Assembly (NCBI GenBank): GCA_023249225.1
Contig: JAHFDA010000021.1
Location: forward strand, 1-41,366
Reading direction: 5' to 3'
Length of the DNA stretch: 41,366 nt
From: a bacterium
GTDB lineage: Bacteria > Margulisbacteria > Marinamargulisbacteria > JAHFDA01
Below are positions 1,969-30,077 of this stretch, piece by piece (the stretch's first letter is position 1; the number at the start of each line of letters is the position of its first letter). Below the pieces are notes generated by a model. It was not told the DNA's origin. It made no database searches and saw only the letters and a program-made list of their open reading frames with translations. A program made the translations under genes and the position numbers.

Positions 1969-2052
1969 ATGTTTAAGCGATTGGCCGCGTGCTTTTTTTG
2001 GCGCGGACACGCTTGATTTATGAGAAAAAAAGTTCGGGTGTATCAGCTATGA
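1969..2052 (+). pseudogene. Scar of a deleted family-A GT-C gene (start plus last codons)
   Basis: Bases 1993-2052 match 3931-3984 closely. Allowing a 2-base indel, they encode an ARTRLIYE...VRVYQL end followed by TGA. The intact family-A genes end in the same way: LIYDSGAVRIYRL at 3917, LIYDTAGASVYQV at 36062. The stretch begins with an ATG at 1969, placed exactly as in the promoter block repeated before the gene at 4027. It therefore looks like a former gene collapsed by internal deletion to its first and last codons. Its TGA (2050-2052) overlaps the ATG of the next gene (2049), which suggests the lost gene was translationally coupled to that gene. The alternative is a short leader peptide, MRKKVRVYQL, from 2020. 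Confidence 0.5.
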
Positions 2053-3917
2053 ATATTGCCAGCCTGGAATTTGTACTTTGGTGTCTGGTCTTAGCCGTGG
2101 GTGCTTTTGGTTTGGGTTATGAAGTCCTACGGCGGCTAAAGCTGCCATACCGCCGTGCGGCGGCTTTAAATTTGGGCTTGCTGCTGTATTGCGCTCTGGT
2201 TTTGGCTTTGGGGTGGCTGCACTTGCTGTATGCCAGGGCGCTGGTGGTTTTTGTGATTCTGATGGCCTTGGGGACGATCGGGCAATACCACCGGCTGTTC
2301 GGGGATGTGTGGCGGGATCTAAAGCAGATGTTTTTGCGCCAGGACAAGTCTGGCAAAATTCTATGCCTTGCTGCGTTGGGCCTGGGGCTGTTTCATGGCA
2401 TTCAGTCGCTTAACCCGCTTACCCTTGGGGACCCTTCTTATCAACTGTGCCGAGATTATTTAGAAGCGCATTATTTTTTGTTTCGGCCAGACATGTGGAT
2501 GGCGCTGTTGCCTCTGGGGTATTACGGATGGGGAATTTTGGCCTATGCTCTGCAAGGTTTTTCATTAACGGGGGGCATGACCGTGTTGCAAGTGCTGGGT
2601 ATGTGCGCTTTGCTGGCGGGTTTTGCCCGGCGGTGGTTGTCAGAGCGTGTGCTGCCGTATGCCTGGATCATCTTGCTGGCCATGCCGCTGGTGTTATCGG
2701 GCACCCGCGCCGTGCGCGAAGAAATACTGGATATGGCCATTGCGCTGCTGGTGGTGATATTTTTTCTTGAGGCCTGGTGGCAGGAGGATGCATCGATCCG
2801 CAGGCGGGCCATGGCTTTGGTGATTTTTTTAACGTGTTTTGCTTTAGGTGGAAAAGTCACCTCGCTGGCTTTGTTTGGAGCCATGAGTTTGGCAGGTTTG
2901 ATGTGGGTATGGCGGCAAGCGCAGCGTGGGCAGGCGCTGGCTTACGCTTTTGGGTGCGTGGTGGTTTTTTCATCTCTGTTGATTGTGCCGTGGCTGGCGC
3001 GGGCTTATTTTTATACCGGTAACCCGGTATGGCCCGAGGCCATTAAAATATTTGGCGGCCCGTACTGGCCAGCCGATGCTTGGAAAATATATTACAAGTA
3101 CCAGGTACAGTTTAAGCATTCGATGGCTGAATTTGTGCGTCTGCCGTATTTCTTTTTTAAGGGTTTTAAAAGCAACCGACCGGTGGGAACTTCGACGGGG
3201 ATTTGGGTTTTGGCGCTGGGCATTCCGGCCCTGTTTTTATGGCGACGGTATCCCGCCAACGGTATTTTAGGGCTCATTTTTATGCTGTTTATGTCGTGCG
3301 CTTATGTGGTATTGGTTCCGACGGATCGTTATTTTTCGGCCACCTATGGCATGCTTTTGCTGCTTTCCATGTTTGCATTGCATCGATGGGTTGTGGAGCT
3401 CCGTTGGGCGCGGACATGGCTATTTTTTCTGATCATGGTCACAAGCATGTTCGAAGTTGGGATTTCATGGATGCGCTGGATCAACCCCGATTGGCCCATC
3501 AGTCGCACTGACCTTGTTCGAAGCATCTGGAACCGCGATTTAGAATGGAAAATTCGCTGTACAGTGGTTCCAGATTACGCCGCTGCAGAATATATGCGTG
3601 TCCAGCATGACGATGGCCAGAGCGTACTGGTGCTGGGCGGTCGCGCCCTTCGTTACCGTTCCCCGGCATACACCGGGGATCCGGTCGTTCAATACTGGAT
3701 TGACTACCGCAATTACGATCACCCGCTGGCGCTGCTGCAGGACCTTAGGTCAAAAGGCATTGCTTATGTAAGCGTGGAATCAAATTTTTTTCAGCGCGAG
3801 GATTTTTTTGGTGATTTTCCGCAATCGGGACAGGTGCTTCAGGCAGCGCTGGCGCTTACTGAACTGATCTACGACAGCGGCGCCGTGCGGATTTACCGCT
3901 TAACGTCAGGCGGGTGA
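2049..3917 (+). CDS. Family-A polytopic membrane protein, GT-C glycosyltransferase-like (copy 1)
   Basis: This 622-residue protein has about ten to twelve hydrophobic segments and a soluble C-terminal domain of roughly 120 residues. It shares its architecture and motifs with the genes at 4027 and 34191: an LGDPS loop near residue 128, AVREE near 220, GGKVTS near 272, RAYFYTGNPVWP near 317-328, PTDRYF near 425, and a tail ending LIYDSGAVRIYRL. The TGNPxxP motif and early acidic loop residues recall GT-C enzymes, which use polyprenyl-phosphate sugars at the outer face of the membrane; no named family is certain. I chose the ATG at 2049 because the copy at 34191 aligns from there. A GTG at 1989 would add 20 residues that are better explained as the upstream scar. 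No clear ribosome-binding site is seen. A true hydrolase or flippase role is not excluded. Confidence 0.72.
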   Translation: MNIASLEFVLWCLVLAVGAFGLGYEVLRRLKLPYRRAAALNLGLLLYCALVLALGWLHLLYARALVVFVILMALGTIGQYHRLFGDVWRDLKQMFLRQDKSGKILCLAALGLGLFHGIQSLNPLTLGDPSYQLCRDYLEAHYFLFRPDMWMALLPLGYYGWGILAYALQGFSLTGGMTVLQVLGMCALLAGFARRWLSERVLPYAWIILLAMPLVLSGTRAVREEILDMAIALLVVIFFLEAWWQEDASIRRRAMALVIFLTCFALGGKVTSLALFGAMSLAGLMWVWRQAQRGQALAYAFGCVVVFSSLLIVPWLARAYFYTGNPVWPEAIKIFGGPYWPADAWKIYYKYQVQFKHSMAEFVRLPYFFFKGFKSNRPVGTSTGIWVLALGIPALFLWRRYPANGILGLIFMLFMSCAYVVLVPTDRYFSATYGMLLLLSMFALHRWVVELRWARTWLFFLIMVTSMFEVGISWMRWINPDWPISRTDLVRSIWNRDLEWKIRCTVVPDYAAAEYMRVQHDDGQSVLVLGGRALRYRSPAYTGDPVVQYWIDYRNYDHPLALLQDLRSKGIAYVSVESNFFQREDFFGDFPQSGQVLQAALALTELIYDSGAVRIYRLTSGG

Positions 3918-3918
3918 T

Positions 3919-3984
3919 GCGGCTTCATCGGTGCGGACAAGATTGCTTTATGAGCACAAGGGGGTTTGGGTATACCAACTTTGA
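3919..3984 (+). pseudogene. C-terminal scar of another family-A GT-C gene
   Basis: Immediately after the stop of copy 1, a different frame reads VRTRLLYEHKGVWVYQL followed by TGA at 3982-3984. This matches the C-terminus of family-A proteins (LIY, then an acidic or His residue, then GVxVYxL) and the scar at 1993-2052. No start codon or upstream body remains, so it is most simply the last codons of a deleted tandem copy lying between the genes at 2049 and 4027. Confidence 0.55.
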
Positions 3985-4012
3985 ATACCCATAGCCCGCG
4001 CTGTTCATGCAT

Positions 4013-4018
4013 TATGAT
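4013..4018 (+). promoter_or_regulatory. Putative -10 box (TATGAT) for the GT-C gene at 4027
   Basis: TATGAT ends 8 bases before the ATG, so a transcript would begin at or next to the start codon; no ribosome-binding site is present. The block resembles 1935-1971. The -35 region is unclear. Confidence 0.35.
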
Positions 4019-4026
4019 AAATACAA

Positions 4027-5922
4027 ATGTCTGCATACTCCGATTCGGTCTTTTTTCTGGCCCATCTAGGCCCACTATGGATTTTGTTCTGGGATCTTGC
4101 AGTGGCCTTGGGAGCCTTTGCGGTGGGGCACGCGTTTTTGAGGCGTTTTCACTTGCCTTATGCCCGTGCGGCGGCGCTTTTGGTGGGACTTATACTTTAC
4201 TGCACGGCGATTTTATTCTTGGGTTGGATGCATCTGTTGTACAACCTTCTGATTCAGGCCATGGTAGTCTTTACAGCGCTTTGGGGGGGCTGGACTTGCC
4301 GAGGGGTTTTAATCGATCTCGCTGCCCAGTTTAAGGCTTGGTTTTTTCGGCAGGCTTGGGTCGAACAGGCTTTGACATGGCTCGGTATAGGTTTGTTTGT
4401 CTTTCACATTTTTCAATCGTTGCTTCCCTTGTTTTTGGGCGATCCGTCATTTCACTTGTTTCGGGACTATGCCGAAGCGCATTATTTTGTATTCCGGCCA
4501 GACATATGGATGGTGCTGCTGCCGATGGGGTATTACGGGTGGGCTCAATTGGCATATGGTCTATACGACTTGTCCCTGGGAGCAGGCATGATGGTGTTGC
4601 AATTGCTGGGCATTTGCCTCTTGTTGGCGGGTTTTGCCCGCCGGGTCTTGTCAGAGCGGGTGATACCCTACGCATGGGTGATCTTGCTTTCCATGCCCAT
4701 GGTGCTTTCGAGCAGTCGCGCGGTGCGCGAAGAAATCATTGACCTGGCCATGGCCTTGATGCTGTTTGTCTATTTGTTTGAAGCCTGGCGCAGTGATTCC
4801 GCCACAGGGCTGCGCAAAAAGGCTATGGCTTTTGTGATTTTACTGGGTTGTTTTGCTTTGGGCGGAAAGGTGACGTCGATCGCCTTGTTTTTAAGTGTGG
4901 TGCTGCTGTGTCTTTTATGGGTCGGATGCCAGCAAAACAAGCGTGAATCTTTTTGGTTTTGCGTACAGGTGACCGTCCTGGGTTCGGTTTTATTTATTGT
5001 CCCGTGGTTGCTTCGGGCCTATGTGTATACCGGTAATCCGGTGTGGCCCAGAGCATATGAGATTTTTGGCGGGCCCTATTGGGCAGCAGACGGCTGGCAG
5101 AATTTTTATAAGTATCAGCTGCCTTTTAAATATTCCATGGCTGAAATAGCGCGGTTGCCCTATTTGTTTTGTAAAGCGTTTGAAGCTGACCGACCGGCGG
5201 GCACCTCATGCGGAATTTTGGTTTTAACCCTGGGCTTTCCGGCGGTTTTATGCTGGGGTCGACATGCCGCGTTGCGCTTGCTGGTGTTTATGTTTGCAAG
5301 TTTCTTTGTGCTGGCGTATTTGTTGCTTGTGCCCACCGACCGTTATTTTGCGGCAGCTTATCTGTTTTTATTATTGGCCGCATTGTTTTCTTTGGATTTT
5401 TTAGTTTTTAAAAGTCGTGTGGGGCGTCTGTGGGTACTGCTGATTTTTTGGGGAGTCAGCGTATTTGAGATCGGGTTGAATGTGACCCGCTGGATTAATC
5501 CAGATTTTTCAATTTCCCGGATGGATATGGTGCAGGGGGTTTTTGATTTAAATAAAAAACGTGCGGTGCTTTATGCGGGCTACCCCGACCAGCAGGTGGG
5601 CGATTATATGAGCGCATACCATCAGGACGGCAAAGGTATTCTGGTGATCGGGGGGCGCGCTTTTCGGTATCGTTCACCGGCTTACGATGGAGACCCGGTC
5701 ATTCAGTATTGGATCGATTACCGTTCTTATCATACTGCCGCTGACCTGATTCGAGCATTGCAGGATCGGAACATTGGATACATTGCCTTGTCTGATGCCA
5801 TTTTTGAGGGAGATTATTTTTTTAAAGACTTTCCCGCGACCAAGCAGTTAATCTACGAGACGGTGGCGTCCATGCGGGTGATCTATCATCAGGACGGGGT
5901 AAACGTGTATGCGTTTCCCTAA
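4027..5922 (+). CDS. Family-A polytopic membrane protein, GT-C glycosyltransferase-like (copy 2)
   Basis: This 631-residue close paralogue of the gene at 2049 is similar along its whole length. Its motifs are LGDPSFHLFRDY near residue 138, SRAVREEI, FALGGKVTSIALF, RAYVYTGNPVWP near 329-340, VPTDRYF, and a soluble tail with LVIGGRAFRYRSPAYDGDPV. It has many transmembrane helices with a periplasmic-type C-terminal domain expected. The role is inferred to be transfer of a sugar, or a similar group, from a lipid carrier during polysaccharide assembly. The N-terminus is about ten residues longer than copy 1, and the ATG directly follows a -10-like box, so the mRNA may be leaderless. It converges with the radical SAM gene, with 15 bases between stop codons and no clear terminator. 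Confidence 0.72.
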   Translation: MSAYSDSVFFLAHLGPLWILFWDLAVALGAFAVGHAFLRRFHLPYARAAALLVGLILYCTAILFLGWMHLLYNLLIQAMVVFTALWGGWTCRGVLIDLAAQFKAWFFRQAWVEQALTWLGIGLFVFHIFQSLLPLFLGDPSFHLFRDYAEAHYFVFRPDIWMVLLPMGYYGWAQLAYGLYDLSLGAGMMVLQLLGICLLLAGFARRVLSERVIPYAWVILLSMPMVLSSSRAVREEIIDLAMALMLFVYLFEAWRSDSATGLRKKAMAFVILLGCFALGGKVTSIALFLSVVLLCLLWVGCQQNKRESFWFCVQVTVLGSVLFIVPWLLRAYVYTGNPVWPRAYEIFGGPYWAADGWQNFYKYQLPFKYSMAEIARLPYLFCKAFEADRPAGTSCGILVLTLGFPAVLCWGRHAALRLLVFMFASFFVLAYLLLVPTDRYFAAAYLFLLLAALFSLDFLVFKSRVGRLWVLLIFWGVSVFEIGLNVTRWINPDFSISRMDMVQGVFDLNKKRAVLYAGYPDQQVGDYMSAYHQDGKGILVIGGRAFRYRSPAYDGDPVIQYWIDYRSYHTAADLIRALQDRNIGYIALSDAIFEGDYFFKDFPATKQLIYETVASMRVIYHQDGVNVYAFP

Positions 5923-5937
5923 GGATAAAAGGTTTGT

Positions 5938-7431
5938 TTACAGCGCCATATGGGCGACAAAATTGTTTGTAGGCTCTTGCAGCGACAAAGCGGGGTAAGT
6001 TTCTGAATGCACGCTGGCCAAGGTGGCTTTGCGCAGGGCGGTCAATGCTTCTTCCGAGACGTGCATCATCTGGGCAATCTTTTGACGTTTAGAGGGTGTG
6101 CCAAAGTTAATTCGTTCCCATTCATAAGCACGCAAATATTTAAGATCCTGGGGATTAAATTCGCTGGAGATAAGCCGACTTTCAGACCAGTTGACATCGG
6201 TTTTCATGTTATAGCCTTGCATGAGATTTTTGTCTTCCATCACTTTTTTATAAAGTGGGGTGTTGGGCAGGGGCTGATAGATAAAAAACTTGGTGTAGTC
6301 GGCGTCCAGGCTCTCGGCAAATCGTATGGTTTCACGAATTTCTTCCCAAGTTTCGCCCGGAAAACCGATAATAAAATGTGTGTTTACGTCGATCCCTAAA
6401 GATTTGGCTTTCTTTACCATATTCACCACATGGTTCAGCTTGACAGGCTTATGCACGATATCATTGAGAACCCGTTCGACACCTGATTCAACGGCCATAT
6501 CCAAGTACTGGCAGCCGCTTGCCTTCATGGTATCAAGCAAGGGGTCGCTTAAATAGAACACCGGAACAGCTATGGCGTTCCATTTTAAGTCCAGGTTTTC
6601 GTCGATCATGGCCTGGAACAAGGCGCGGGCACGGGCACGGCTGATGTACAAGTTGTCATCGTCAAAAATAAGCGCCTTGATGCCATAGTGTTCTTTCAGA
6701 AATTTCATTTCCTTAATGATATGGGGCACCGAACGGGCGCGGAACGGTTTTCCGGTGATAGATTCAATTTCGCAAAATGTGCATCCCACCGGGCAACCCC
6801 GTGACGTCATGATACGCGCATAGGGCAATGTGCGGGGCGAGTCGACACTGATGCGTTGTAAGGTACGGGTGTACCGCCCGTAATCAGCCAGGTGATAGGC
6901 CGGGTTAGGAAGGATGTCCAAGTCATGAATAAACGGAGATTTTTCTTGAACCACGCGTTCGCCATTTTTAAAATAAGCAATACCACGTTTCGGCAGGTCT
7001 CCCTGGCCGTTTAAAAAATGAAGCAGGGTTGGAAATGTAAATTCGCCCTCTCCCAAAACCATATAATCGATGTTTCCATCACGGCCGGCAATATCGGGCG
7101 CTTGGGTGGCATAAATCCCCCCCAAGACTGTGATGATGTCGGCATTTATCTGTTTGACCAGTTGAGCCGCAATGTGGGCCGTGGGACCATATTCCATGGT
7201 TAAAAGCGTGATGCCTACGAGGTCAGGGTTTAACGCTGCAATTTTTTTTTGGAATTCTTCCTGGCTTAAATTATCGATGTTGGCGTCTATGATATTGATG
7301 TCATAATCTTTTTCGATCATGGCAGCGACCAGACAGATGTTGATGGGGTGGATTTCCCAAAGGGTCTTGAAATTCCATGGAATCCATTTTAAATTAGGTT
7401 GTACAAATACAATTCGATTGATTTTTGTCAA
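5938..7431 (-). CDS. B12-binding-type radical SAM protein
   Basis: This 497-residue protein has an N-terminal Rossmann-like B12-binding-type domain (about 25-150, with LGGIYATQAPD and LGEGE motifs). A radical SAM barrel follows, with Cys213, Cys217 and Cys220 (CPVGCTFC) to hold a 4Fe-4S cluster. This is the BchE/P-methylase-like architecture, whose members methylate or rearrange unactivated carbons; the substrate here is unknown. The classic B12-ligating DxHxxG is not seen, so it may bind cobalamin base-off without a protein His, or not at all. The start is a TTG at 7431 with AAAGG seven bases upstream; no ATG fits ahead of the first conserved strand. It lies last in the minus-strand sugar operon, 109 bases after the SGNH gene, and may also have its own promoter. 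Confidence 0.85.
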   Translation of the reverse strand: MTKINRIVFVQPNLKWIPWNFKTLWEIHPINICLVAAMIEKDYDINIIDANIDNLSQEEFQKKIAALNPDLVGITLLTMEYGPTAHIAAQLVKQINADIITVLGGIYATQAPDIAGRDGNIDYMVLGEGEFTFPTLLHFLNGQGDLPKRGIAYFKNGERVVQEKSPFIHDLDILPNPAYHLADYGRYTRTLQRISVDSPRTLPYARIMTSRGCPVGCTFCEIESITGKPFRARSVPHIIKEMKFLKEHYGIKALIFDDDNLYISRARARALFQAMIDENLDLKWNAIAVPVFYLSDPLLDTMKASGCQYLDMAVESGVERVLNDIVHKPVKLNHVVNMVKKAKSLGIDVNTHFIIGFPGETWEEIRETIRFAESLDADYTKFFIYQPLPNTPLYKKVMEDKNLMQGYNMKTDVNWSESRLISSEFNPQDLKYLRAYEWERINFGTPSKRQKIAQMMHVSEEALTALRKATLASVHSETYPALSLQEPTNNFVAHMAL

Positions 7432-7475
7432 GATTGAGCCTTTGATTTTATATTTTATGCGAGGTTGAAGACTGA

Positions 7476-7481
7476 AGTATA
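7476..7481 (-). promoter_or_regulatory. Possible -10 box (TATACT) for the radical SAM gene
   Basis: TATACT on the minus strand lies in the 109-base AT-rich gap before the TTG start at 7431, giving a leader of about 38 bases that includes the AAAGG ribosome-binding site. No good -35 hexamer is evident at the usual spacing. Confidence 0.3.
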
Positions 7482-7540
7482 ACTTATTTTTTAGATGCTT
7501 TTAGTTTTAGAGTCGGTGCGGGATGTAATTTTTACAGATT

Positions 7541-8650
7541 TCATAGGTTAAATTTTGGATTTTGGGAAAGTTTGACATACAGGTAATCACCAATTTTTTG
7601 CGCTCCCTGGGGGGTGTAATGGGTCCAGTCATAATGGCCAGATGTTTCAAAAGGCAATTCATTTTCCAGGTCAATGCAGATTGCGTTGGTTTCATGGCAA
7701 AGCTCCAAGGTGCGCTGGTTGATCAGTTTCATGAAGTAAAAATAATCTACGCCATTGAGCGGTGTATCGAGAAATTCTGCATTGTTTGAAAAATCTTCGT
7801 GGACCACGCCGTATACAACACCGTTCTGTATTTTGTAGTAGAACAAGGGTTGGGTCACCAGGATGGGCATGGAGCCCATTTCATGGCAGCGCCGGATTAA
7901 TATTAAAAGGTTTTTTTGATAGGCTTCCAGAGTGGGCATTAACAGGGACTGATGGTTTTTGATCAGCGGACGAGTGGTCCAATGCAGTTTTTCAAACTGA
8001 ATTTTGCTATGCCGCAGTGACAGCAACTGCGCCCGATAGGTTCCACGGTATTGAAAATACAGATTCACCAGAGCGCTTTTGCGGTGAATCGCGCATTTAA
8101 GCTGGTTGACGTAAAATCGAAATCCAGACAAGTTCTCTGGGTCGCTGCTGTAGTAGGCGTGCAGATCATTGATGCCCACATAAAGCAGCACGTAACGTGG
8201 TTTCAGACCAGGAATTTGGCGCAGCCAAGGGTCAAAATTGGCAACGTAACCACGGGTCGACAGACCGTCACTGCCGGCGTTGACCACCCATACTGTCTGA
8301 CCGGAGCACCGTTTAAAATTTGCATGCAGTACGTCTTGCCAGGTTTCTCCTTCTGAAATAAAGCGCTGGTCGGTGGTGCTGCCACCCAGGGTTAGTATGT
8401 CGATGTGGTCAGTCTGCGGATAAGCGCCACGCAGGCCGTAACGGTCGCGGCGGTACAATATTTTTTGCGAGGTGGGATACAGGTGACTTGCATCAAGGTG
8501 CAGCGCCATGTTTCTTAATACACCCAACGGGTAAAAGCGGTCGGGGATGATCCAGTTGCCGAAGATCACTTCAAGTAAAACCAAAGACAAGAAGACAGCC
8601 GCAAGAGACAGCCATATGTTGATGAAGTATTTCAAGGCGAAACGTCCCAT
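7541..8650 (-). CDS. Membrane-anchored SGNH/GDSL-type hydrolase
   Basis: This 369-residue protein has one N-terminal hydrophobic helix (about residues 8-30), so the catalytic domain is likely periplasmic or outside. The SGNH blocks are present in order: GGSTT at 89-93 with the nucleophile Ser, NAGSDG at 124-129, GIND at 159-162, and DWTH at 341-344 supplying the catalytic Asp and His. Such proteins in polysaccharide loci act as O-acetyl esterases or acyl-group-handling enzymes on the glycan; that role is inferred. It starts with ATG at 8650 and a weak ribosome-binding site. The 71 bases ahead of it, up to the epimerase stop, contain a scar of a GT-C gene on the other strand, so this junction has been rearranged. 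Confidence 0.8.
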   Translation of the reverse strand: MGRFALKYFINIWLSLAAVFLSLVLLEVIFGNWIIPDRFYPLGVLRNMALHLDASHLYPTSQKILYRRDRYGLRGAYPQTDHIDILTLGGSTTDQRFISEGETWQDVLHANFKRCSGQTVWVVNAGSDGLSTRGYVANFDPWLRQIPGLKPRYVLLYVGINDLHAYYSSDPENLSGFRFYVNQLKCAIHRKSALVNLYFQYRGTYRAQLLSLRHSKIQFEKLHWTTRPLIKNHQSLLMPTLEAYQKNLLILIRRCHEMGSMPILVTQPLFYYKIQNGVVYGVVHEDFSNNAEFLDTPLNGVDYFYFMKLINQRTLELCHETNAICIDLENELPFETSGHYDWTHYTPQGAQKIGDYLYVKLSQNPKFNL

Positions 8651-8665
8651 TTTAGGGTAGCAAAG

Positions 8666-8746
8666 ACTTCAGCAGGGCTTGTGCTCACCTCATTGATCCA
8701 TGACAGCGGCACCGTGCGGGTTTACCGCTTAACGTCAGGCGGGTGA
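8666..8746 (+). pseudogene. C-terminal scar of a family-A GT-C gene between two minus-strand genes
   Basis: The plus strand encodes TSAGLVLTSLIHDSGTVRVY then RLTSGG and a TGA at 8744-8746. This is nearly the same as the end of the GT-C protein at 2049, which reads ALTELIYDSGAVRIY then RLTSGG. At DNA level 3869-3925 and 8693-8750 differ at only a few positions, and the match continues a few bases past the stop. Only about 80 bases of the gene remain. The last codons of the epimerase on the other strand are read from this scar. Confidence 0.7.
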
Positions 8747-9735
8747 TGCTGCTTGATAAAAGCCACATATTCAGCCAGCCCTTTATTTAAATCATAGTCA
8801 GGTACAAAACCCAAGCGTTGCCGGGCCTTGGCAATGTTTAGAGCGCCACGCCGGGGCAGGGTCTTGTCGCGCGGAAGGACTTCATACTTTAGGTCTGGAA
8901 AATGTGATTTTAACGCCTCGACATATTCCAAAAGGGTATAGGAATGTCCATGGGTGATGTTAAAGGTTTCGTTGATTCCGGCCGCGTGCGTGGCCGCCAG
9001 CACAAAACCCTTGGCGACGTCTTTGACATAGGTAAAATCCAAAGCCACATCTGTGCCAGCCACTTTTAAGGTTTCGCCTTTCAAAGCTTTTTCAATAAAG
9101 ATTTGCGAAACCCGCTGATTCATATCAGTGGGTCCATAAACGGCCGAGGGCCGGATAATGGTGTAGGGAATTTGGTATAAATGCGCGAGGCCACGGGTGA
9201 CCACTTCTCCGGCCAGCTTCATGGTGGCATAAAGTCCTTTGGGTTGGGTCGGGTGTTGTTCATCAGCCGGGTGGTACTGAAAGTCTCCGTAAACCATGCT
9301 AGAGGAGGTATACACAAAGCGGTTGGGTTTATACCCGTTGACTTGATACAGCGTATGGATACTTTCAAAAAGTGCCGCCGTCGAAATGATGTTGCCTTTC
9401 ATAGCTTCTTCGGACGACAGGTTTTCGAGCGAGGCGAGTGGCACGGCCGCCAGATGAAAAATAGTACTGGGCTTATATCTGGATAAGAGCGAATAGAGCA
9501 AGTGCGGTGAACTGGCTTCTCCGCGTTCGATCACCAGGTGTTTTTCCATGCCCTGGATGCGCAATTTGCGGTAGTCAAAAAAGTTGGGCTGCAGGGGGTT
9601 GATGTAACCGCCAAAATGATCTAGTAAAACCACCTGGTCTACCAGCTGATCCGAAAGTAAGCGCTTGGCAATGTGCGATCCGATAAACCCAAAGCCACCG
9701 GTAATTAAAGCGGATTGTGTCAAGGTTACAATCAA
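8722..9735 (-). CDS. NAD-dependent nucleotide-sugar epimerase/dehydratase (extended SDR)
   Basis: This protein of about 337 residues has GGFGFIGSHIA near the N-terminus for NAD(P) binding, TSSSMVYG for the catalytic Ser region, and YATMK for the Tyr-Lys pair. It is of the GalE/UDP-glucuronate-decarboxylase type; the exact sugar is unknown. The start is a TTG at 9735, 2 bases after the upstream GT2 stop, or a TTG at 9723; neither has a clear ribosome-binding site. The C-terminus, HHPPDVKR, is odd because it is encoded by the reverse strand of a GT-C gene scar. The native tail was therefore probably replaced or extended by recombination. Confidence 0.85.
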   Translation of the reverse strand: MIVTLTQSALITGGFGFIGSHIAKRLLSDQLVDQVVLLDHFGGYINPLQPNFFDYRKLRIQGMEKHLVIERGEASSPHLLYSLLSRYKPSTIFHLAAVPLASLENLSSEEAMKGNIISTAALFESIHTLYQVNGYKPNRFVYTSSSMVYGDFQYHPADEQHPTQPKGLYATMKLAGEVVTRGLAHLYQIPYTIIRPSAVYGPTDMNQRVSQIFIEKALKGETLKVAGTDVALDFTYVKDVAKGFVLAATHAAGINETFNITHGHSYTLLEYVEALKSHFPDLKYEVLPRDKTLPRRGALNIAKARQRLGFVPDYDLNKGLAEYVAFIKQHHPPDVKR

Positions 9736-20197: not shown

Positions 20198-21814
20198 GTG
20201 GGGGGCAGGGTGCGGGTGACCGCAAGGCTCGTTGAGCATTCACGTGTCGGAGTGGCCTTGCTCCTGGTGTTTGCCTTTGGCTTAAGCTGGTGGGGCGGCA
20301 GTCGAGGCTTTCATCCCTCGGACTCTAATATTTTGTTCGATGGTGGCTGGCGCATTCTTTCGGGCCAGATACCTTACAAAGACTTTGTGGCCCCTGTTAT
20401 TGTGCCCATGTATTTACAAGCCATTTTTTTTAAAATTTTTGGAGTTAACTTTAACGCGTATCGTTTACATGCGGCAGTGGTCAACATGGTGGCCACCGGT
20501 CTAAGCCTGATCGTGTTGCGTGGATTGTTGCCTGCCAGACCCTGGCTGTGGGGAACAGGTGCGCTGTTTACCGCGGTTTGGTTTTATCCTTTCTGGGGCA
20601 CCCCCTGGTATTATCAGAGCTCGGTTTTTTTTGGGTTGATCGGGGTGGCCTGTGTCTTGCGTGCGCGCAAACTTTGCTTGCATGAAACAAGCGGCAGCAG
20701 GTTGCCCCAGGCCTTGGGGTTTGCCATGAGTTCAGCTCCCTTTTTTGTGTTGTCGTTTTTATCTAAACAGACCAGCGGGGGCTTGTTTATGGTATTTCCG
20801 CTGTTGCTATGGCTGACACCGCCCTGGCCGCGCAAGCCAGGGTATTTGCTACTCGGGTATGGTTTTGCGTTGCTGGCGAGCAGCATGGCGGTGATAGCCT
20901 TGGTTGCGCATTTTGCAGATTGGAGTTTGTTTAAATATCACGTGTTCGAGCTTCCGCCGACCAATATGGCTCACGTGCTCTCGCGCCAGTATTACCTAAG
21001 CAAGTCATCCGGTCTGTTGCTTTTGATGGCCTTGAGCGTGCTGCTGCCAGTGGCTTTAAGGCTTTGGTTTGTTTCCGAGCGGCGCAGGGATATCTTTTTG
21101 CCACTCGTGTGTTTTGCGGCCATTTCAGTTTTTCACGAAATCAATATCGCCTTATCGACATCGCCGGCCTTTGGCAGTTTGTCGCTGCTGGGGATACAGA
21201 TCGTGCTGGGATATTATTTGCTTGATGAGATTTGCTTAAGTTTGACCTCGTTCCGTTGGCAAAGCCAAGGGCTGTTTCAGGGCCTGCGTGGCGGATATAT
21301 CGGCATGATGTGGCTGGTTTTTTTGGCGGGTTTGTTTCTCGTGCAGTCGGGTCGCTGGAAAACCGGTCCCAGCGCTATTTTAGCGCAGCCCATTGTCAGC
21401 GGTCCGTTAAGCGGCTTGCGTTGGCCCGAGACCATCGTTCCAATGAACAGGCAAAATGTGATTGATGCGCTTGATTTTGTGTGTCATACCCGCGAATCGG
21501 TATATATTTGGGGTAGCATGACCTTGTTTTATGGTGTCAGCGGAAAGGCATCCATTCCGCCGGTGCTGTGGTATCACGAGGGCAATTGTTTTCCAAGCAC
21601 CTATGACGCCAGAATGCGTGAGATTGACCTTTGGACCTTGCGTAAGATACAGCAGGCCAATCCACGTTACGTGATGGGTAATGAACCCTTGATGTTTTTT
21701 AATCCACACCCTTATTTCAAGGAAACCGTACGGTATCTACAAAACCATTATGCGCTGAAACACCAGCGTTTTGGCCCCTGGCTGACGCTTTTTGAGCGTA
21801 AGGACAATGTGTAA
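20198..21814 (+). CDS. Family-B GT-C-like membrane protein, array copy 1
   Basis: This 538-residue polytopic membrane protein has about ten helices, an early loop FDGGWRILSGQIPYKDF near residues 47-63, FWGTPWYYQSSVFFGL, LSKQTSGGLF, and a C-terminal soluble part with YIWGSMTLFYGVSGKASIPP and CFPSTYDARMREIDLWTL. The early Asp and GxxPYxDF resemble GT39/ArnT-type GT-C enzymes that take sugars from polyprenyl phosphate. The GTG at 20198 follows an AAGGTGAAGGTGAA stretch; a GTG at 20210 is possible. It follows the dehydrogenase by 12 bases. Confidence 0.72.
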   Translation: MGGRVRVTARLVEHSRVGVALLLVFAFGLSWWGGSRGFHPSDSNILFDGGWRILSGQIPYKDFVAPVIVPMYLQAIFFKIFGVNFNAYRLHAAVVNMVATGLSLIVLRGLLPARPWLWGTGALFTAVWFYPFWGTPWYYQSSVFFGLIGVACVLRARKLCLHETSGSRLPQALGFAMSSAPFFVLSFLSKQTSGGLFMVFPLLLWLTPPWPRKPGYLLLGYGFALLASSMAVIALVAHFADWSLFKYHVFELPPTNMAHVLSRQYYLSKSSGLLLLMALSVLLPVALRLWFVSERRRDIFLPLVCFAAISVFHEINIALSTSPAFGSLSLLGIQIVLGYYLLDEICLSLTSFRWQSQGLFQGLRGGYIGMMWLVFLAGLFLVQSGRWKTGPSAILAQPIVSGPLSGLRWPETIVPMNRQNVIDALDFVCHTRESVYIWGSMTLFYGVSGKASIPPVLWYHEGNCFPSTYDARMREIDLWTLRKIQQANPRYVMGNEPLMFFNPHPYFKETVRYLQNHYALKHQRFGPWLTLFERKDNV

Positions 21815-23412
21815 TGCTTGCTACCAAGCCAATCCGGATAGGTTATTTCAGCACCATTTGCCTTTTATCAGTAGCCTTTGGCCTTAGTTGGTGGGCAGGG
21901 GGGCGTGGTTTTCAGCCGGTAGAGTCCAGTATGGTTTTTGATGGGGGCTGGCGGATTTTGTCGGGCCAGCTGCCTTACAAGGATTTTGTCGCGCCCACGG
22001 TGCTTTCTTTTTATTTGCAAGCGCTTTTTTTTAAGCTGCTGGGGGTGAATTTATGGGCGTACCGCATGCATGCGGCGGTCGTAAACGTGTGTGTGACCGG
22101 ACTTGTGATTGCGATTCTGCGCGTGTTGCTTTCGACCTCTGCCGGACTTATCAAAGTAGGCGCCCTGCTCACGGCCATTTGGTTTTATGCATTTTTAGGT
22201 ATTCCGTCTGATTTCCAGACTTCCATTTTTTTGGGGCTCTGTGGCATCGCTGTAATTTTGTATGCGCGGCAGTCGCAGAATTCCTGGCGGGGTTATGGGC
22301 GCGATTCAATCTTTAGCCCAGTTTTTTTTGCGGCCCCATTGATGGGGCTGGCCTTTTTGGCTCACCCCACCAGCGGCGCGCCGTTTGTGGTGCTGCCTTT
22401 TTTTCTGCTGGCAACGCCGCCCTGGCCTGCAAAGTGGTGGCAGGCTCTGATCGACTATACGGTGGGCCTGGCGGCCAGTGCGCTGCTTTTGTTTGGGATC
22501 TTGTCTTATTTTACAGATTTATCTTTGTTCAAACATTACGCGCTTCTGCTTCCGCTGCTTGATAGCTTGCATATCGAGCCCGATCTAAACAGCTTGCTTC
22601 CATTCATGGCTGCCATGGTGCTGCTGTGCTTTTGGGTTTTAGTGCCACTGCTTTGGCGTCTCGGTCGGCGTCCGCAAGAACGTGAAGCCTTATGGCTGCC
22701 GCTTATATGTTTTTTAGCAATCTTAAGTTTTCAAGTGATTCAGCTTGTCCTGGCAGGCCCGGCCAGTTATGCAAAGTTTCCGCTGATGGGCTTGCTGCTG
22801 GTCTTGGCTTATGAGCTGGCCAACGGTTCCTGGCGCAGTTTGCTCGGCTCTAAAAAATGGTACATACGTTGGTTGTTGCGGACACTCTCTTTGGTGATGG
22901 TCTTGGTGATCTTATTGGCTTTGGGTGGGGGAGTCTATTTGGCCATGCTGCCACGTGCCAAAGGACATACTGCCCAACAGACCTTGGCCAAGGCCATCGA
23001 TCGGGAGCCGCTTAAAGGCTTGCGCTGGACAGAACCATCTGGCATCACCCGCCAGAACGTCCTTGAGGTGACGGATTTTGTGCGCAGCATGCCTGATGCC
23101 ATTTTTGTATGGAGTGGCTTTACGATTCTTTATGGCTTGGGCGGGCATATTTCAGTGGCCCCAGTGGTGGGAGATCCAGCGCATGCGGGTTTGGCGAACG
23201 GCAGCGGCACCGAGCAACGGGCGCTTGATTTATGGACGCTTGCCAGGCTGCAAGCATTTAATCCGCAGTATGTGATCGGTCCACAAAAACTGCTGTTGTA
23301 TGATGATCCTGCATTTCCAGAAACAATGAAATATCTCAACGGACATTTTGCGTATGAACACGAGCGTTTTGGAACTGCCCTGGCAGTCTTTAAACGCATG
23401 CCCGGACTTTGA
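21814..23412 (+). CDS. Family-B GT-C-like membrane protein, array copy 2 (divergent)
   Basis: This protein has 532 residues and the same topology. FDGGWRILSGQLPYKDF is kept, but two motifs shared by the other four copies are changed. SKQ(T/P)(S/T)G becomes AHPTSG. The tail segment with VLWxHxGxCFPxTYxAxMR becomes PVVGDPAHAGLANGSGTEQR, though DLWTL then resumes. It may have a different donor or acceptor, or be losing function; the reading frame is intact. Its ATG overlaps the previous stop as TAATG, and its TGA overlaps the next TTG start. Confidence 0.7.
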   Translation: MLATKPIRIGYFSTICLLSVAFGLSWWAGGRGFQPVESSMVFDGGWRILSGQLPYKDFVAPTVLSFYLQALFFKLLGVNLWAYRMHAAVVNVCVTGLVIAILRVLLSTSAGLIKVGALLTAIWFYAFLGIPSDFQTSIFLGLCGIAVILYARQSQNSWRGYGRDSIFSPVFFAAPLMGLAFLAHPTSGAPFVVLPFFLLATPPWPAKWWQALIDYTVGLAASALLLFGILSYFTDLSLFKHYALLLPLLDSLHIEPDLNSLLPFMAAMVLLCFWVLVPLLWRLGRRPQEREALWLPLICFLAILSFQVIQLVLAGPASYAKFPLMGLLLVLAYELANGSWRSLLGSKKWYIRWLLRTLSLVMVLVILLALGGGVYLAMLPRAKGHTAQQTLAKAIDREPLKGLRWTEPSGITRQNVLEVTDFVRSMPDAIFVWSGFTILYGLGGHISVAPVVGDPAHAGLANGSGTEQRALDLWTLARLQAFNPQYVIGPQKLLLYDDPAFPETMKYLNGHFAYEHERFGTALAVFKRMPGL

Positions 23413-25076
23413 CCCTGGGAGCTTCAGTTCAAAAGAGCTGGGCCCATCAATTTTTTTGGCCCATGACGGTCATGGTGCTGGCGTTTGCTTTTATGCTCTG
23501 CTGGTGGAGCGGCGGACGGGGTTTTAACCCCTTTGATTCCAGCATTATTTTTGATGGGGGCTGGCGCATCCTTTCAGGCCAGGTTCCGTATCGTGATTTT
23601 ATCAGCCCGGTGATTGCACCCATGTACCTGCAAGCCTTTTTCTTCAAGCTTTTGGGTGTGCATTTTTTTGCGCTGCGCTTTCATGCGGCTTTGGTTAACA
23701 TGCTGACGGTTGCTTTGTGCATGGCGCTGCTTCGGGCGGTGATTCCGGGATGGCCTAAGACCATCTTGGCCGGAGGCTTGCTGACCGGGATCTGGTTTTA
23801 TTCCATTTGGGGTATTCCCTGGTATTTCCAGACTTCGGTCTTTTTCGGGTTGATGGGTACAGCGCTGGCTTTGCGTGCACGTGTCACCATGCATGCAGGG
23901 CGCAGGGGCATGCTTTTGCTGGGGTCGGCGTCTGCGCCCATGATGTTGCTGGCGTTTTTATCAAAACAACCTACTGGAAGTCTGTTTTTTGCTTTTCCGT
24001 TTGTCCTTTGGCTCATTCCGCCTCGGAAAGACGGTTTTTTAAAGTTGTTGCTGGCCTACGGAATGGGATTTTTGTTTGCCGTGCTGGTGTTATATAGCTT
24101 ACTTAGCTATTACGCCGACTGGAATTGGTTTAAGTACATTGTCTTTGATTTACCGCCGGGCATTTTGGAGCAGCTTATGGCGGGGCGCTACTACTTAAGC
24201 AAGATGATGGCGCCTTTGCTGGCTTTGACGCTTGCCACCCTGGTGCCAGTCTTGTGGAGTTTTAGACGCTTTCCTCAAGACCGTCAAGCCCTGTATCTGC
24301 CGCTCGGTTTGTTTATGTCCACGGTATTCTTTCATGTGGTTTGCATCAGTGTCTCAACCGCCCCAGCCTTTACCAATCTGCCGCTTGTGGGCGTGATGCT
24401 TTCCCTGGCTCTCTACCTGGTGACTTCTGCTTGTGAGCGTATGGGTACACGCACCTATGCGGATCCCGTAGGTTGGATGCCATTGATTTTGGCAGTGGTC
24501 ATGGTGCTTAGCAGCGGTGTGGGGCTTCATCTGGTGTACTCGGCGCACGCCAAAGGCCACGATGAGACCATGATTTTAATGCCACCGATTGAAAGTGGAC
24601 CGCTTAAAGGCTTGCGGTGGTCTGAAAACTTTAGTCATATCACCCGTAAAAATCTCATGGATGTGGTTGATTTTATGCGGCACGAGCGTGAGCCTATTTG
24701 TGTGTGGGGCGGCTATTCAATGCTTTACGGGATCAGCGGACATCCGTCGGTGGGGCCGGTGCTGTGGTACCACCCGGGTTTATGTTTTCCAAGTACCTAT
24801 AATGCAAAAATGCGTGAGATCGACTTGTGGACACTGCATGACATACAGACGGTTAAACCCCGTTATGTGATCGCTACCGCTCCGTGGATGCTGGCGGTTG
24901 ATCAGGATACGGGATTGCCCGCGCCGGGCTATGTGCTGGGGCAGAACCCCTCATACTATTTTAAGGATCACCCGTATTTTAAAGAGACCTTACGTTACTT
25001 GCGAAAAAATTACCCGGTTAAACACCAACATTTTGGTCCATGGCTGACTCTTTTTGAGCGCAAGGATGCTGTGTAA
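23409..25076 (+). CDS. Family-B GT-C-like membrane protein, array copy 3
   Basis: This 555-residue protein is closest to copy 4. It has FDGGWRILSGQVPYRDF, FWGIPWYF-like IWGIPWYFQTSVFFGL, LSKQPTGSLFF, a soluble tail CVWGGYSMLYGISGHPSVGP and LCFPSTYNAKMREIDLWTL. Together with copy 4 it has an added segment of about 24 residues near the end, around AVDQDTGLPAPGYVLGQNPS, missing in copies 1, 2 and 5. The start is a TTG overlapping the previous TGA as TTGA; the next in-frame ATG would cut into the first helix. Confidence 0.71.
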   Translation: MTLGASVQKSWAHQFFWPMTVMVLAFAFMLCWWSGGRGFNPFDSSIIFDGGWRILSGQVPYRDFISPVIAPMYLQAFFFKLLGVHFFALRFHAALVNMLTVALCMALLRAVIPGWPKTILAGGLLTGIWFYSIWGIPWYFQTSVFFGLMGTALALRARVTMHAGRRGMLLLGSASAPMMLLAFLSKQPTGSLFFAFPFVLWLIPPRKDGFLKLLLAYGMGFLFAVLVLYSLLSYYADWNWFKYIVFDLPPGILEQLMAGRYYLSKMMAPLLALTLATLVPVLWSFRRFPQDRQALYLPLGLFMSTVFFHVVCISVSTAPAFTNLPLVGVMLSLALYLVTSACERMGTRTYADPVGWMPLILAVVMVLSSGVGLHLVYSAHAKGHDETMILMPPIESGPLKGLRWSENFSHITRKNLMDVVDFMRHEREPICVWGGYSMLYGISGHPSVGPVLWYHPGLCFPSTYNAKMREIDLWTLHDIQTVKPRYVIATAPWMLAVDQDTGLPAPGYVLGQNPSYYFKDHPYFKETLRYLRKNYPVKHQHFGPWLTLFERKDAV

Positions 25077-26749
25077 TGGTCTCTGATAAGTTGCAAAAAT
25101 TGAATTCGCAATTTTTCTGGTTTCTGGCGGCAGGGGTGCTGGCCTTTGCTTTTATGCTCTGCTGGTGGAGTGGCGGACGGGGTTTTTACCCTTCAGATTC
25201 CAGCATTGTTTTTGATGGCGCCTGGCGCATCCTTTCAGGCCAGGTTCCGTACCGCGACTTTATCAGTCCGGTGATTGTGCCGCTGTACTTGCAGGCACTT
25301 TTCTTCAAGATTTTAGGCGTGCATTTTTTTGCGCTGCGCTTTCACGCGGCCTTTGTCAATATGCTGACATCTGCTTTATGCATGGTGCTGCTTTCTTATG
25401 TGATTCCTGGATGGCGGCTGACCATCTTGGCGGGAGGCTTGCTTACGGGCATCTGGTTTTATTCATTTTGGGGCATACCCTGGTATTTTCAGACCTCGGT
25501 TTTTTTTGGATTGATCGGCTCGGTGCTGGCTTTGCGCGCTCGCACGACCATGAATGCGGGACGTATGGGCATATCTTTTGTTTTGCGAGAGCCGGCCTTT
25601 TGGTCTGCACCCATGATGTTGCTGGCGTTTTTATCAAAACAACCCACCGGGAGTCTGTTTTTGGCTTTTCCATTGATCCTTTGGCTGATTTCACCCCGGA
25701 AAGACGGATTTTGGAAGCTGTTTCTGGCCTACGGACTGGGGTTTTTGGTTGGCGCTTTGTCGTTCTATAGTCTGATCAGTGATTACGCCGACGCGAGATT
25801 GTTTAAGTACATTGTCTTTGATTTGCCACCGGGCATCCTGGAGCAGCTCATGAGGGAGCGGTATTACTTAAACAAGATGATGGGGCTCTTACTGACCTTG
25901 ACGGTGGCAACCTTGGGGCCAGTCTTGTGGCACATGGGTCGCTTTCCGCAAGACCGTCAAGACAGGTATCTACCGCTGGGTTTGTTTATGGCCACAGTGG
26001 GTTTTCATGTCGTTTGCATCGGTGTTTCAACCGCCCCGTCCTTTACCAATCTGCCGCTTGTGGGCGTGATGCTTGCCCTGGCTCTCTACCTTGTGAATTC
26101 TGCTTGTGAGCGTATGGGTACACGCAGCTATGCGGATCCCACATTTTGGATGCCATTCATTTTGGCAGGGGTCATGGTAGTGACGGGTGGAGCGGGGCTT
26201 TATCTGGTGTCCTCGGCACGCGCCAAGGGCCATAATGCGAGCATGGTTTTTATGCCACCGATTGAAAGTGGACCGCTCAAGGGTGTGCGTTGGTCAGAGC
26301 CCATCAGCGGCATCACGCGTCAGAATGTCATTGATGTGATTAATTTTGTGCAACACGTGCCTGAACCCATTTATGTGTGGGGCGGGTTTTCGATTCTTTA
26401 TGGGATCAGCGGACATACGTCGGTGGGGCCAGTATTGTGGCAACACGAAGGTTTATGCTTTCCAAACAGCTATAACGCAGAGATGCAGGCGATCGATTTA
26501 TGGACATTGCGTGATATCCAGGCGGTTAAACCTCGTTATGTGATTGGTGCCACCAAATGGTTGCTGGCTGTCGATCAGGATACGGGCGTTCCAGCGCCGG
26601 GCTATGTGCTGGGTCAGGAACCCTCGTTCTATTTTAAGGATCACCCGTATTTTAAAGAGACCATGCGCTATCTGCGAAAAGACTATCCGGTTAAACACCA
26701 ACGTTTTGGTCCCTGGCTCACACTTTTTGAGCGCAAGGATGCTGTGTAA
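25076..26749 (+). CDS. Family-B GT-C-like membrane protein, array copy 4
   Basis: This 557-residue protein shares FDGAWRILSGQVPYRDF (Ala replacing the second Gly), FWGIPWYFQTSVFFGL, LSKQPTGSLF, YVWGGFSILYGISGHTSVGP, and the extra AVDQDTGVPAPGYVLGQEPS segment of copy 3. Its first 90 or so residues are nearly the same as copy 5, while the rest is closer to copy 3. It looks like a mosaic from gene conversion or a recent duplication. Start and stop overlap the neighbours as TAATG. Confidence 0.72.
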   Translation: MVSDKLQKLNSQFFWFLAAGVLAFAFMLCWWSGGRGFYPSDSSIVFDGAWRILSGQVPYRDFISPVIVPLYLQALFFKILGVHFFALRFHAAFVNMLTSALCMVLLSYVIPGWRLTILAGGLLTGIWFYSFWGIPWYFQTSVFFGLIGSVLALRARTTMNAGRMGISFVLREPAFWSAPMMLLAFLSKQPTGSLFLAFPLILWLISPRKDGFWKLFLAYGLGFLVGALSFYSLISDYADARLFKYIVFDLPPGILEQLMRERYYLNKMMGLLLTLTVATLGPVLWHMGRFPQDRQDRYLPLGLFMATVGFHVVCIGVSTAPSFTNLPLVGVMLALALYLVNSACERMGTRSYADPTFWMPFILAGVMVVTGGAGLYLVSSARAKGHNASMVFMPPIESGPLKGVRWSEPISGITRQNVIDVINFVQHVPEPIYVWGGFSILYGISGHTSVGPVLWQHEGLCFPNSYNAEMQAIDLWTLRDIQAVKPRYVIGATKWLLAVDQDTGVPAPGYVLGQEPSFYFKDHPYFKETMRYLRKDYPVKHQRFGPWLTLFERKDAV

Positions 26750-28341
26750 TGGTTTCTGATAAGTTTCAAAAATTGAATCTGCATTTTTTTTGGCTTCTGG
26801 CCGCAGGGGTGCTGGCGTTTGCTTTTATGCTCTGCTGGTGGAGCGGCGGACGGGGTTTTTACCCTTCAGATTCCAGCATTGTTTTTGATGGGGGTTGGCG
26901 CATCCTTTCAGGCCAGGTTCCGTACCGCGATTTTATCAGTCCCGTGATTGTGCCGCTGTATCTGCAAGCGCTGTTCTTTAAGATGTTCGGAGTGTATTTT
27001 TTTGTGCTGCGTTTTCATGCGGCATTTGTAAATATGCTGGCAGCAGGGCTGGGAATGCTGTTGCTGCGTTTTATTTTACCAGCCGAACCGCTGCTGATCC
27101 TGGCGGGTGGGGCGCTGACTGGTATCTGGTTTTATTCATTCTGGGGTCTCCCATGGTACCTGCAGACTTCGGTTTTTTTTGGACTGGCAGGCGCTGTCTT
27201 GGCGCTGGCAGCACGGATTGAGGATAAAACTGATAGGCAGATGATGCTGGCAGTTTGGGTGGCTCCGCTTATGCTGCTTTCGTTTTTTTCAAAACAGACC
27301 AGTGGCGGACTTTTTTTAGCTTTGCCATTTTTCCTTTGGCTGATTCCGCCCCGAGGACGCGGTTTTTGGAAGTTGTTTCTGGGCTACGGCGGGGGACTTT
27401 TAGTCTGTGCCGGGGCGCTTTATGGCTTGGTGACTCATTATGCAGATTGGGACTTGTTTAAGTACCATGTCTTTGATTTGCCGCCGGGCAACCAGGCGCA
27501 GTTGATTGCAGGCCGGTATTACTTAAGCAAGATGATGGGGCTGCTGATGATCTTGACGGGAGCAACGTTGGGGCCAGTCTTGTGGCGTTTTCGCCGCTTT
27601 CCGCAAGACGGTCAAGATATGTATTTGCCGCTGGGAGTTTTTATGGCCACGGTGGTATTTCATGCCGTGTGTATCAGCCTTTCCACCGCTCCGGCCTTTA
27701 ACAATATGCCGCTGATGGGTGTGATGCTGGTGCTGGCTTTTTTTCTGGTGCTTTCTGCTTGCGAGCGTATGCTTCCGCGCACATACGGGAGCCCTGCATT
27801 CTGGTTGCCCTGGATTTTGGCGGGGGTCATGGTGCTGACGGGCACTGCGGGGATTTACCTGGTGGCTTCGGCGCAAGCCAAGGGCCACGATGCGACCATG
27901 GTTTTAATGCCGCCGATTAAAAGCGGCCCGCTCAAAGGCCTGCGCTGGTCAGAACCGATTAACCACATCACCCGTCAAAATGTAATCGATGTGGTGGATT
28001 TTGTGCAGCGTGTGCGCGAACCTATTTACGTGTGGGGCGGATTTTCGATTCTTTACGGAATCAGCGGGCATCCATCGGTGGGGCCGGTGCTGTGGCACCA
28101 CGAGGGGGTATGTTTTCCAGGCACCTACAACGCAAAGATGCGGGCGATCGACCTGTGGACCCGCGAGAGTATCCAAACAGCCAATCCGCTGTATGTGATC
28201 GGCGCAGAAGCGTTGTTATCCTACAAGGAACACCCGTACTTTAAAGAAACAGTGCGCTATCTGCAGACGCACTATGCTTTTGAGCATGACCGCTTTGGCC
28301 GCTGGTTGCTAGTATTGAAACGGAAAGACACACCCTCATGA
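26749..28341 (+). CDS. Family-B GT-C-like membrane protein, array copy 5
   Basis: This 530-residue last member has FDGGWRILSGQVPYRDF, FWGLPWYLQTSVFFGL, FSKQTSGGLFL, and a tail YVWGGFSILYGISGHPSVGP and VCFPGTYNAKMRAIDLWTRE. It lacks the 24-residue addition of copies 3 and 4. Its TGA overlaps the ATG of the transketolase subunit as ATGA, which ties glycan transfer and sugar synthesis into one coupled transcript. The function is inferred as for the other copies. Confidence 0.72.
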   Translation: MVSDKFQKLNLHFFWLLAAGVLAFAFMLCWWSGGRGFYPSDSSIVFDGGWRILSGQVPYRDFISPVIVPLYLQALFFKMFGVYFFVLRFHAAFVNMLAAGLGMLLLRFILPAEPLLILAGGALTGIWFYSFWGLPWYLQTSVFFGLAGAVLALAARIEDKTDRQMMLAVWVAPLMLLSFFSKQTSGGLFLALPFFLWLIPPRGRGFWKLFLGYGGGLLVCAGALYGLVTHYADWDLFKYHVFDLPPGNQAQLIAGRYYLSKMMGLLMILTGATLGPVLWRFRRFPQDGQDMYLPLGVFMATVVFHAVCISLSTAPAFNNMPLMGVMLVLAFFLVLSACERMLPRTYGSPAFWLPWILAGVMVLTGTAGIYLVASAQAKGHDATMVLMPPIKSGPLKGLRWSEPINHITRQNVIDVVDFVQRVREPIYVWGGFSILYGISGHPSVGPVLWHHEGVCFPGTYNAKMRAIDLWTRESIQTANPLYVIGAEALLSYKEHPYFKETVRYLQTHYAFEHDRFGRWLLVLKRKDTPS

Positions 28342-29147: not shown

Positions 29148-30077
29148 ATGCGAAAGGTTTTTGCGGCCCAGTTGCTGGCAGAATTTAAACAAAACCAGCG
29201 CCTGATGTTGCTGGCGGGCGACCTGGGTTACGGCGTGCTCGAAGACATCGTTAAACAATGTCCACGGCAGTACCTTAACGTGGGCGTGGCCGAACAGAAC
29301 ATGATGGGCATCGCCACCGGTTTGGCGTTAGAGGGATACAGCGTGTTCGTGTATTCCATTGCCAACTTTCCAATCCTGCGCTGCCTTGAGCAGGTGCGTA
29401 ACGATGTGTGTTACCACGGGGCCAACGTAAAAATTGTCTCTATCGGGGGCGGGTTTAGTTACGGGGGCCTCGGATTTTCGCATCACGCCACCGAGGATCT
29501 GGCCATCATGCGCGCCATGCCGTACATGACCGTAGTGGCGCCTGGGGATCGTTTTGAAACAGCACAGGCAACGGCTGTGCTGGCCCGCCATGTGGGGCCG
29601 GCCTATCTACGTCTCGACAAGCTCGACAAGTCTCTTCCGGACAGCGCCGCAGCCGGAGATACTGGGTTTTCGCTCGGAAAGGCCCGTGTCCTGCGTCCCG
29701 GAAAAGATGTCACGCTGATGGCCAGCGGAGGTATTGTTTTTGAAGCGCTTAAAGCGGCGGAGTTGCTGGCTCAAGAAGGGGTAGATTGCCGCGTATTAAG
29801 CATGCATACCGTCAGCCCGCTGGATGTGGATGCGGTCACAAAGGCCGCCAGAGAGACCCGCGCCCTTGTGACGGTAGAAGAACATACCGTGACCGGAGGC
29901 CTGGGGTCAGCAGTGGCCGAAACTTGCCTTGAGGCGGCTGTGCTGCCGCACAAATTTTACCGCTTAGGTTTGCGAACGGGTTTTGCCACTGCCGTAGGCA
30001 GCCAGGAGTACTTAAGAAAGCAATACGGAATGGCGGCCATTCATATTCAAGATACCGTTAAACGATTATTGGGATAA
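29148..30077 (+). CDS. Transketolase C-terminal (pyrimidine-binding) subunit
   Basis: This 309-residue partner of the preceding gene starts directly after its stop. It has the TPP-activating Glu49 in NVGVAEQNMMG, the pyrimidine-binding core around GGGFSYGGLGFSHHATED, and a C-terminal transketolase domain with VTVEEHTVTGGLGSA. With the N-subunit it makes a full catalytic unit. It is the last gene of the plus-strand operon. The stop faces the epimerase stop on the other strand, with nine bases between; a weak CTCTT/AAGAG hairpin lies there. Confidence 0.92.
   Translation: MRKVFAAQLLAEFKQNQRLMLLAGDLGYGVLEDIVKQCPRQYLNVGVAEQNMMGIATGLALEGYSVFVYSIANFPILRCLEQVRNDVCYHGANVKIVSIGGGFSYGGLGFSHHATEDLAIMRAMPYMTVVAPGDRFETAQATAVLARHVGPAYLRLDKLDKSLPDSAAAGDTGFSLGKARVLRPGKDVTLMASGGIVFEALKAAELLAQEGVDCRVLSMHTVSPLDVDAVTKAARETRALVTVEEHTVTGGLGSAVAETCLEAAVLPHKFYRLGLRTGFATAVGSQEYLRKQYGMAAIHIQDTVKRLLG

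Follow-up and report, generated by a model that had tools for sequence, protein, structure and literature searches.

Three partial 3′ copies of GT-C-like membrane protein genes at a polysaccharide-type locus, and a possible history of duplication and loss

Intact paralogues and their surroundings

The DNA analysed here, referred to below as the window, is one entire contig of 41,366 nucleotides from a draft Marinamargulisbacteria genome of 2.83 Mb in 121 contigs. It carries three intact genes, all on the plus strand, for a family of polytopic membrane proteins that are GT-C-like by architecture. Gene 1 (2049–3917) is an open reading frame for 622 residues, gene 2 (4027–5922) encodes a paralogue of 631 residues that is 50% identical to the gene 1 product, and gene 3 (34191–36062) encodes a third paralogue, about 36–37% identical to that of gene 1. 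A distant fourth paralogue, 25% identical, lies on a different contig. Within the window only the three intact genes contain the family's N-terminal, middle and DPxxQYW motifs, and alignment of the three paralogues places D128, R135 and E224/E225 among their invariant positions. The structural model of the gene 1 product is helix-rich with a C-terminal alpha/beta part and has low confidence (mean pLDDT 45); the C-terminal tail of the family is predicted to form the last two β-strands, residues 605–609 and 613–617, of that weakly modelled C-terminal part.

The neighbourhood of the paralogues includes genes for an O-antigen ligase-like protein, an epimerase and aminotransferases. The NAD-dependent epimerase/dehydratase gene (8722–9735, minus strand; Pfam PF01370, E 4e-40) encodes a protein ending in IKQHHPPDVKR. 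Two B12-binding radical SAM proteins with about 28% mutual identity are encoded at 5938–7431 and 36927–38450, in both cases close to a member of the gene 1–3 family. Elsewhere on the contig, at 20198–28341, five paralogous membrane protein genes (530–557 residues) are arranged head to tail, with up to 79% DNA identity over 3.1 kb; one member matches PMT_2, and no sequence similarity between this array and genes 1–3 is detectable. Beside the array, 28338–29147 matches the transketolase N-terminal domain, and 29148–30077 resembles the partner C-terminal half of transketolase, as judged from its sequence alone.

Three tails and the blocks beside them

In addition to the intact genes, the plus strand carries three short stretches in which the tails of family genes are present alone, and which we call scars. 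The clearest is scar 3 (8667–8757), which sits between a GDSL gene and the epimerase gene and is a copy of the 3′ end of gene 1 together with 11 nt of its flank (3837–3928). The two are 84% identical over 92 nt, through the stop codon and 11 bases past it. The match is found at E 7e-21 in a whole-genome DNA search, in which scar 3 matches the coding end of gene 1 only, and at E 4e-20 in a self-comparison of the window. Its local alignment score of 121 compares with 34 for the best of 1000 dinucleotide shuffles and with at most 30 elsewhere in the window. The homology does not extend significantly to the left (p=0.95). Since the 84% identity exceeds that of any window of comparable length between genes 1 and 2 (maximum 83%), scar 3 is not the tail of gene 2 and is younger than the split between genes 1 and 2.

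The antisense strand of scar 3 encodes the last 11 residues of the epimerase and its stop codon. Homologues of the epimerase in the class align up to about residue 331 of 337, and the overlap with scar 3 therefore begins within the conserved end of the protein. Differences between scar 3 and gene 1 are fewer inside this overlap (2 of 36 sites) than outside it (12 of 50; Fisher p=0.036), and those outside are spread across the codon positions (5, 3 and 4), as would be expected of decay.

Scar 2 (3930–3986) is a tail of a second type, here called tail X, and reads RTRLLYEHKGVWVYQL followed by a stop codon. As the earlier note had observed of one of its tails, it directly follows an intact copy: the homology between gene 1 and scar 3 ends at 3928, and scar 2 begins one base past it. 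When all 6619 stop-proximal 16-mers in the six frames were ranked for likeness to the family tail, the scar 2 peptide came fifth with a score of 30, the other members of the top five being the three intact genes and scar 3; the next best score was 12.

Scar 1 (2000–2054) is a frameshifted copy of tail X. It matches scar 2 at 42 of 55 positions (76%) with one 2-nt gap, and the score of 51 stands against a shuffle maximum of 30 and no more than 29 at other places in the window. The gap corresponds to a 2-nt deletion in an A-run of scar 1, so that the upstream half of scar 1 is in the frame of gene 1, while its last ten residues, MRKKVRVYQL, and the stop (2020–2052) are in another. The earlier note was mistaken in reading 1993–2052 as a tail in frame to the usual stop, since the deletion breaks the frame after the LIYE motif. 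The TGA of scar 1 overlaps the ATG of gene 1 as ATGA. Compared directly with the end of an intact gene, scar 1 does not reach significance across the window (26 against a background of 27), and its membership of the family would thus come through its match to scar 2. Of the three C-terminal tails that the note had described, then, scar 3 is real by its DNA, scar 2 by its peptide and scar 1 by way of scar 2, with the frame of scar 1 needing correction.

What kind of sequence is shared by scars 1 and 2? Their match does not extend significantly leftward (p=0.24), and a genome-wide search for their core, allowing up to 3 mismatches, finds these two occurrences and no third. Within the V-Y-Q-L codons the two scars differ only at third positions (GTG/GTA, TAT/TAC, CAG/CAA and CTA/CTT), and these synonymous differences suggest that they diverged at least partly while coding. 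This would be the strongest point in favour of two separate former genes, or of an X and a copy of it that were both coding long before they decayed. Since scars 1 and 2 are copies of a single tail type, they do not testify independently to two different lost genes.

That the blocks might instead be a regulatory RNA or a mobile short repeat is a very improbable reading. Scar 1 does fall in the would-be 5′ untranslated region of gene 1, but the folding energies of the blocks are like those of shuffled sequence (z between −1.1 and 0.2), no Rfam family is found at gathering score, the core of scars 1 and 2 occurs only twice in the genome, and scar 3 pairs only with the coding end of gene 1. We rejected the regulatory RNA on folding and Rfam, and the dispersed repeat on genome-wide copy number. 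With the tail motif right, the V-Y-Q-L changes synonymous and no RNA signal from folding or Rfam, the reading of the scars as protein-gene remnants of the gene 1–3 family is well supported by sequence comparison, in agreement with the earlier note.

A further homology lies upstream of scar 1. The block at 1918–1972 (TGAATAC ... ATACAAATG T) is homologous to the start-proximal block that precedes gene 2 (3982–4030), with a local score of 45 where the next best in the window is 26, and the match continues weakly to about 2004 and 4063, respectively (p=0.017). One scar does retain a start-proximal block, which the earlier note had described as its former start and promoter block. The order of the elements differs between the two sites: before gene 2 it is scar, block, start, and before gene 1 it is block, scar, start. 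Further left, where the O-antigen ligase-like gene starts, a candidate fourth remnant lying within that gene was rejected as not significant (p=0.09 and 0.17). The 7-mer ATGAATA, at 1917–1923 and 2049–2055, borders the unit of block plus scar 1 on both sides and is a possible microhomology for recombination; it occurs five times on the plus strand of the window.

Arrangement of the tails and possible histories

The paired blocks are collinear: scar 1, gene 1 and its tail are followed by scar 2, gene 2 and scar 3, and the homology between gene 1 and scar 3 stops at 3928 where that between scars 1 and 2 starts at 3930. A single tandem duplication that ran from within the tail of a gene X to a point just beyond gene 1 would produce this order and abutment. 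We propose that the end of a gene X once overlapped the first four bases of gene 1, with the ATGA still seen today, and that a tandem duplication then copied the segment from the last 17 codons of X, through gene 1, to just past its stop, the two copies meeting at 3928/3929–3930. In the left copy the body of X would later have disappeared, so that its start-proximal block and its tail (scar 1) remained before gene 1. In the right copy the duplicate of gene 1 would have lost its body and been replaced by gene 2, its upstream block and two minus-strand genes, leaving the X tail (scar 2) at the left and the gene 1 tail (scar 3) at the right. We regard such a history of duplication and loss, in a small birth-and-death array of GT-C-like paralogues, as about evenly balanced between right and wrong. 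The three tails, their pairing, their order and their abutting ends are observed; from them, in one genome, we infer that there was a single tandem duplication, in what order the events took place, and that the mechanism was ordinary recombination, either illegitimate or assisted by homology. Small changes of this sort are well known to arise in bacteria by illegitimate recombination, whether or not homology at one end assists it (PMC2884548).

Several observations bear on this proposal. The two tail pairs have diverged to a similar degree, with 38 of 50 sites identical in the scar 3 pair outside the epimerase overlap and 42 of 55 in the scar 1/scar 2 pair, although both pairs are short and their equal age is only approximate. 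The five-gene array at 20198–28341 on the same contig, in which similar genes have duplicated head to tail, counts in its favour. A tandem duplication accounts for the ends only, as the bodies between them do not form a pair of matching age. Gene 2 occupies the place expected of a second gene 1 copy, between scars 2 and 3, but was not itself born in the duplication of the tails, because the divergence of genes 1 and 2, whose third codon positions are only 40% identical, is older. A single duplication that would account for the gene 1/gene 2 pair and all of the tails together was rejected as well, since the tail of gene 2 does not resemble scar 3 and the two genes differ much more at third positions. 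Against a tandem history, too, the start-proximal block lies to the left of scar 1 but to the right of scar 2, and further events are needed to explain this. Neither X nor a second gene 1 copy is seen in the related genomes compared, none of them from the same order: public genomes yielded five relatives at about 30% identity and no close one, and viral contigs and plasmids gave none. For the epimerase and radical SAM genes, matches within the class are about 20–33% identical, none of them close enough to mark the same locus.

Three independent deletions could give the same picture. On this account three full-length genes, one at each scar site, were each removed by deletion, which we consider rather unlikely. 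All three tails are significant, scar 1 retains a start-proximal block, which an internal deletion of a gene would leave in place, and within V-Y-Q-L scars 1 and 2 differ only synonymously, as though each had once been coding. Two coincidences would have to be accepted, however, in that the starting points of scars 1 and 2 agree almost to the codon and scar 2 starts where the repeat of gene 1 ends, and prior duplications would be required on top of the three deletions. Three lost genes are not in fact required, because one tandem duplication can put a tail, in this case scar 2, where a full gene never stood. At the least, two gene bodies were lost or replaced, those of X and of the duplicate of gene 1, and a third loss is possible but unneeded. 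The earlier note had argued that at least three more GT-C genes were excised here. Protein-gene remnants they do appear to be, but the number falls to a minimum of two, and the locus gives no signal of an excision mechanism: the block of scars 1 and 2 is present just twice in the genome, and a recombinase-like repeat was not seen.

Direct repeats of 91/92 bp flank the 4.8-kb segment that contains scar 2, gene 2 and the genes for the radical SAM and GDSL proteins. They raise another possibility, namely that homology-assisted recombination brought this segment in at the 3′ end of gene 1. Gene 1 would then have gained the incoming 3′ end, its old end would be scar 3, and X alone would have been lost. 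It is in keeping with such an insertion that scar 3 still adjoins the epimerase gene that it overlaps, and that one-sided homologous plus illegitimate joining is known in bacteria (PMC2884548). The insertion is nonetheless improbable: neither an integrase nor an att-like or empty site was found, and scars 1 and 2 would require a separate explanation.

Persistence of the tails and comparison with known systems

Why should such short tails have survived? The overlap of scar 3 with the epimerase and that of scar 1 with the start of gene 1 could have protected these leftovers. A more specific suggestion, which we put forward as a doubtful one, is that the tails persist through the work that they do for adjacent genes: scar 1 would act as a short leader whose translation (MRKKVRVYQL) is coupled to that of gene 1 by the ATGA overlap, and scar 3 would supply, on the opposite strand, the last codons and the stop of the epimerase gene. 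In this region one can read how membrane glycosyltransferase-like genes are gained and lost at a polysaccharide-type locus, and it suggests that short tails can survive where they overlap live genes. What it records is the ordinary birth and death of paralogues, a trace of routine bacterial duplication and deletion that reveals no new mechanism.

The nearest comparison for the proteins is with the GT-C and PMT-like membrane glycosyltransferases of polysaccharide loci. Genes 1–3 resemble these in their size (about 620 residues), their many predicted helices, their small C-terminal alpha/beta part and their polysaccharide-type neighbours. They differ in that, at the thresholds used, they match no Pfam or NCBIfam model, GT-C families included, and no solved structure among the PDB sequences. 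The GT-C label thus derives from size, helix content and neighbourhood. Where the earlier note assigned the tails to family-A GT-C proteins, their place in the gene 1–3 family stands and the GT-C designation is one of architecture.

Finally, the scars themselves can be compared with the pseudogene remnants found in tandem arrays of paralogues. As in such arrays, the paralogues here lie head to tail and are accompanied by partial 3′ copies in the same orientation, and the decay of scar 3 looks neutral outside the epimerase overlap. In contrast to those remnants, the ones described here keep only the last 17–26 codons of the gene, and two of the leftovers overlap live genes.
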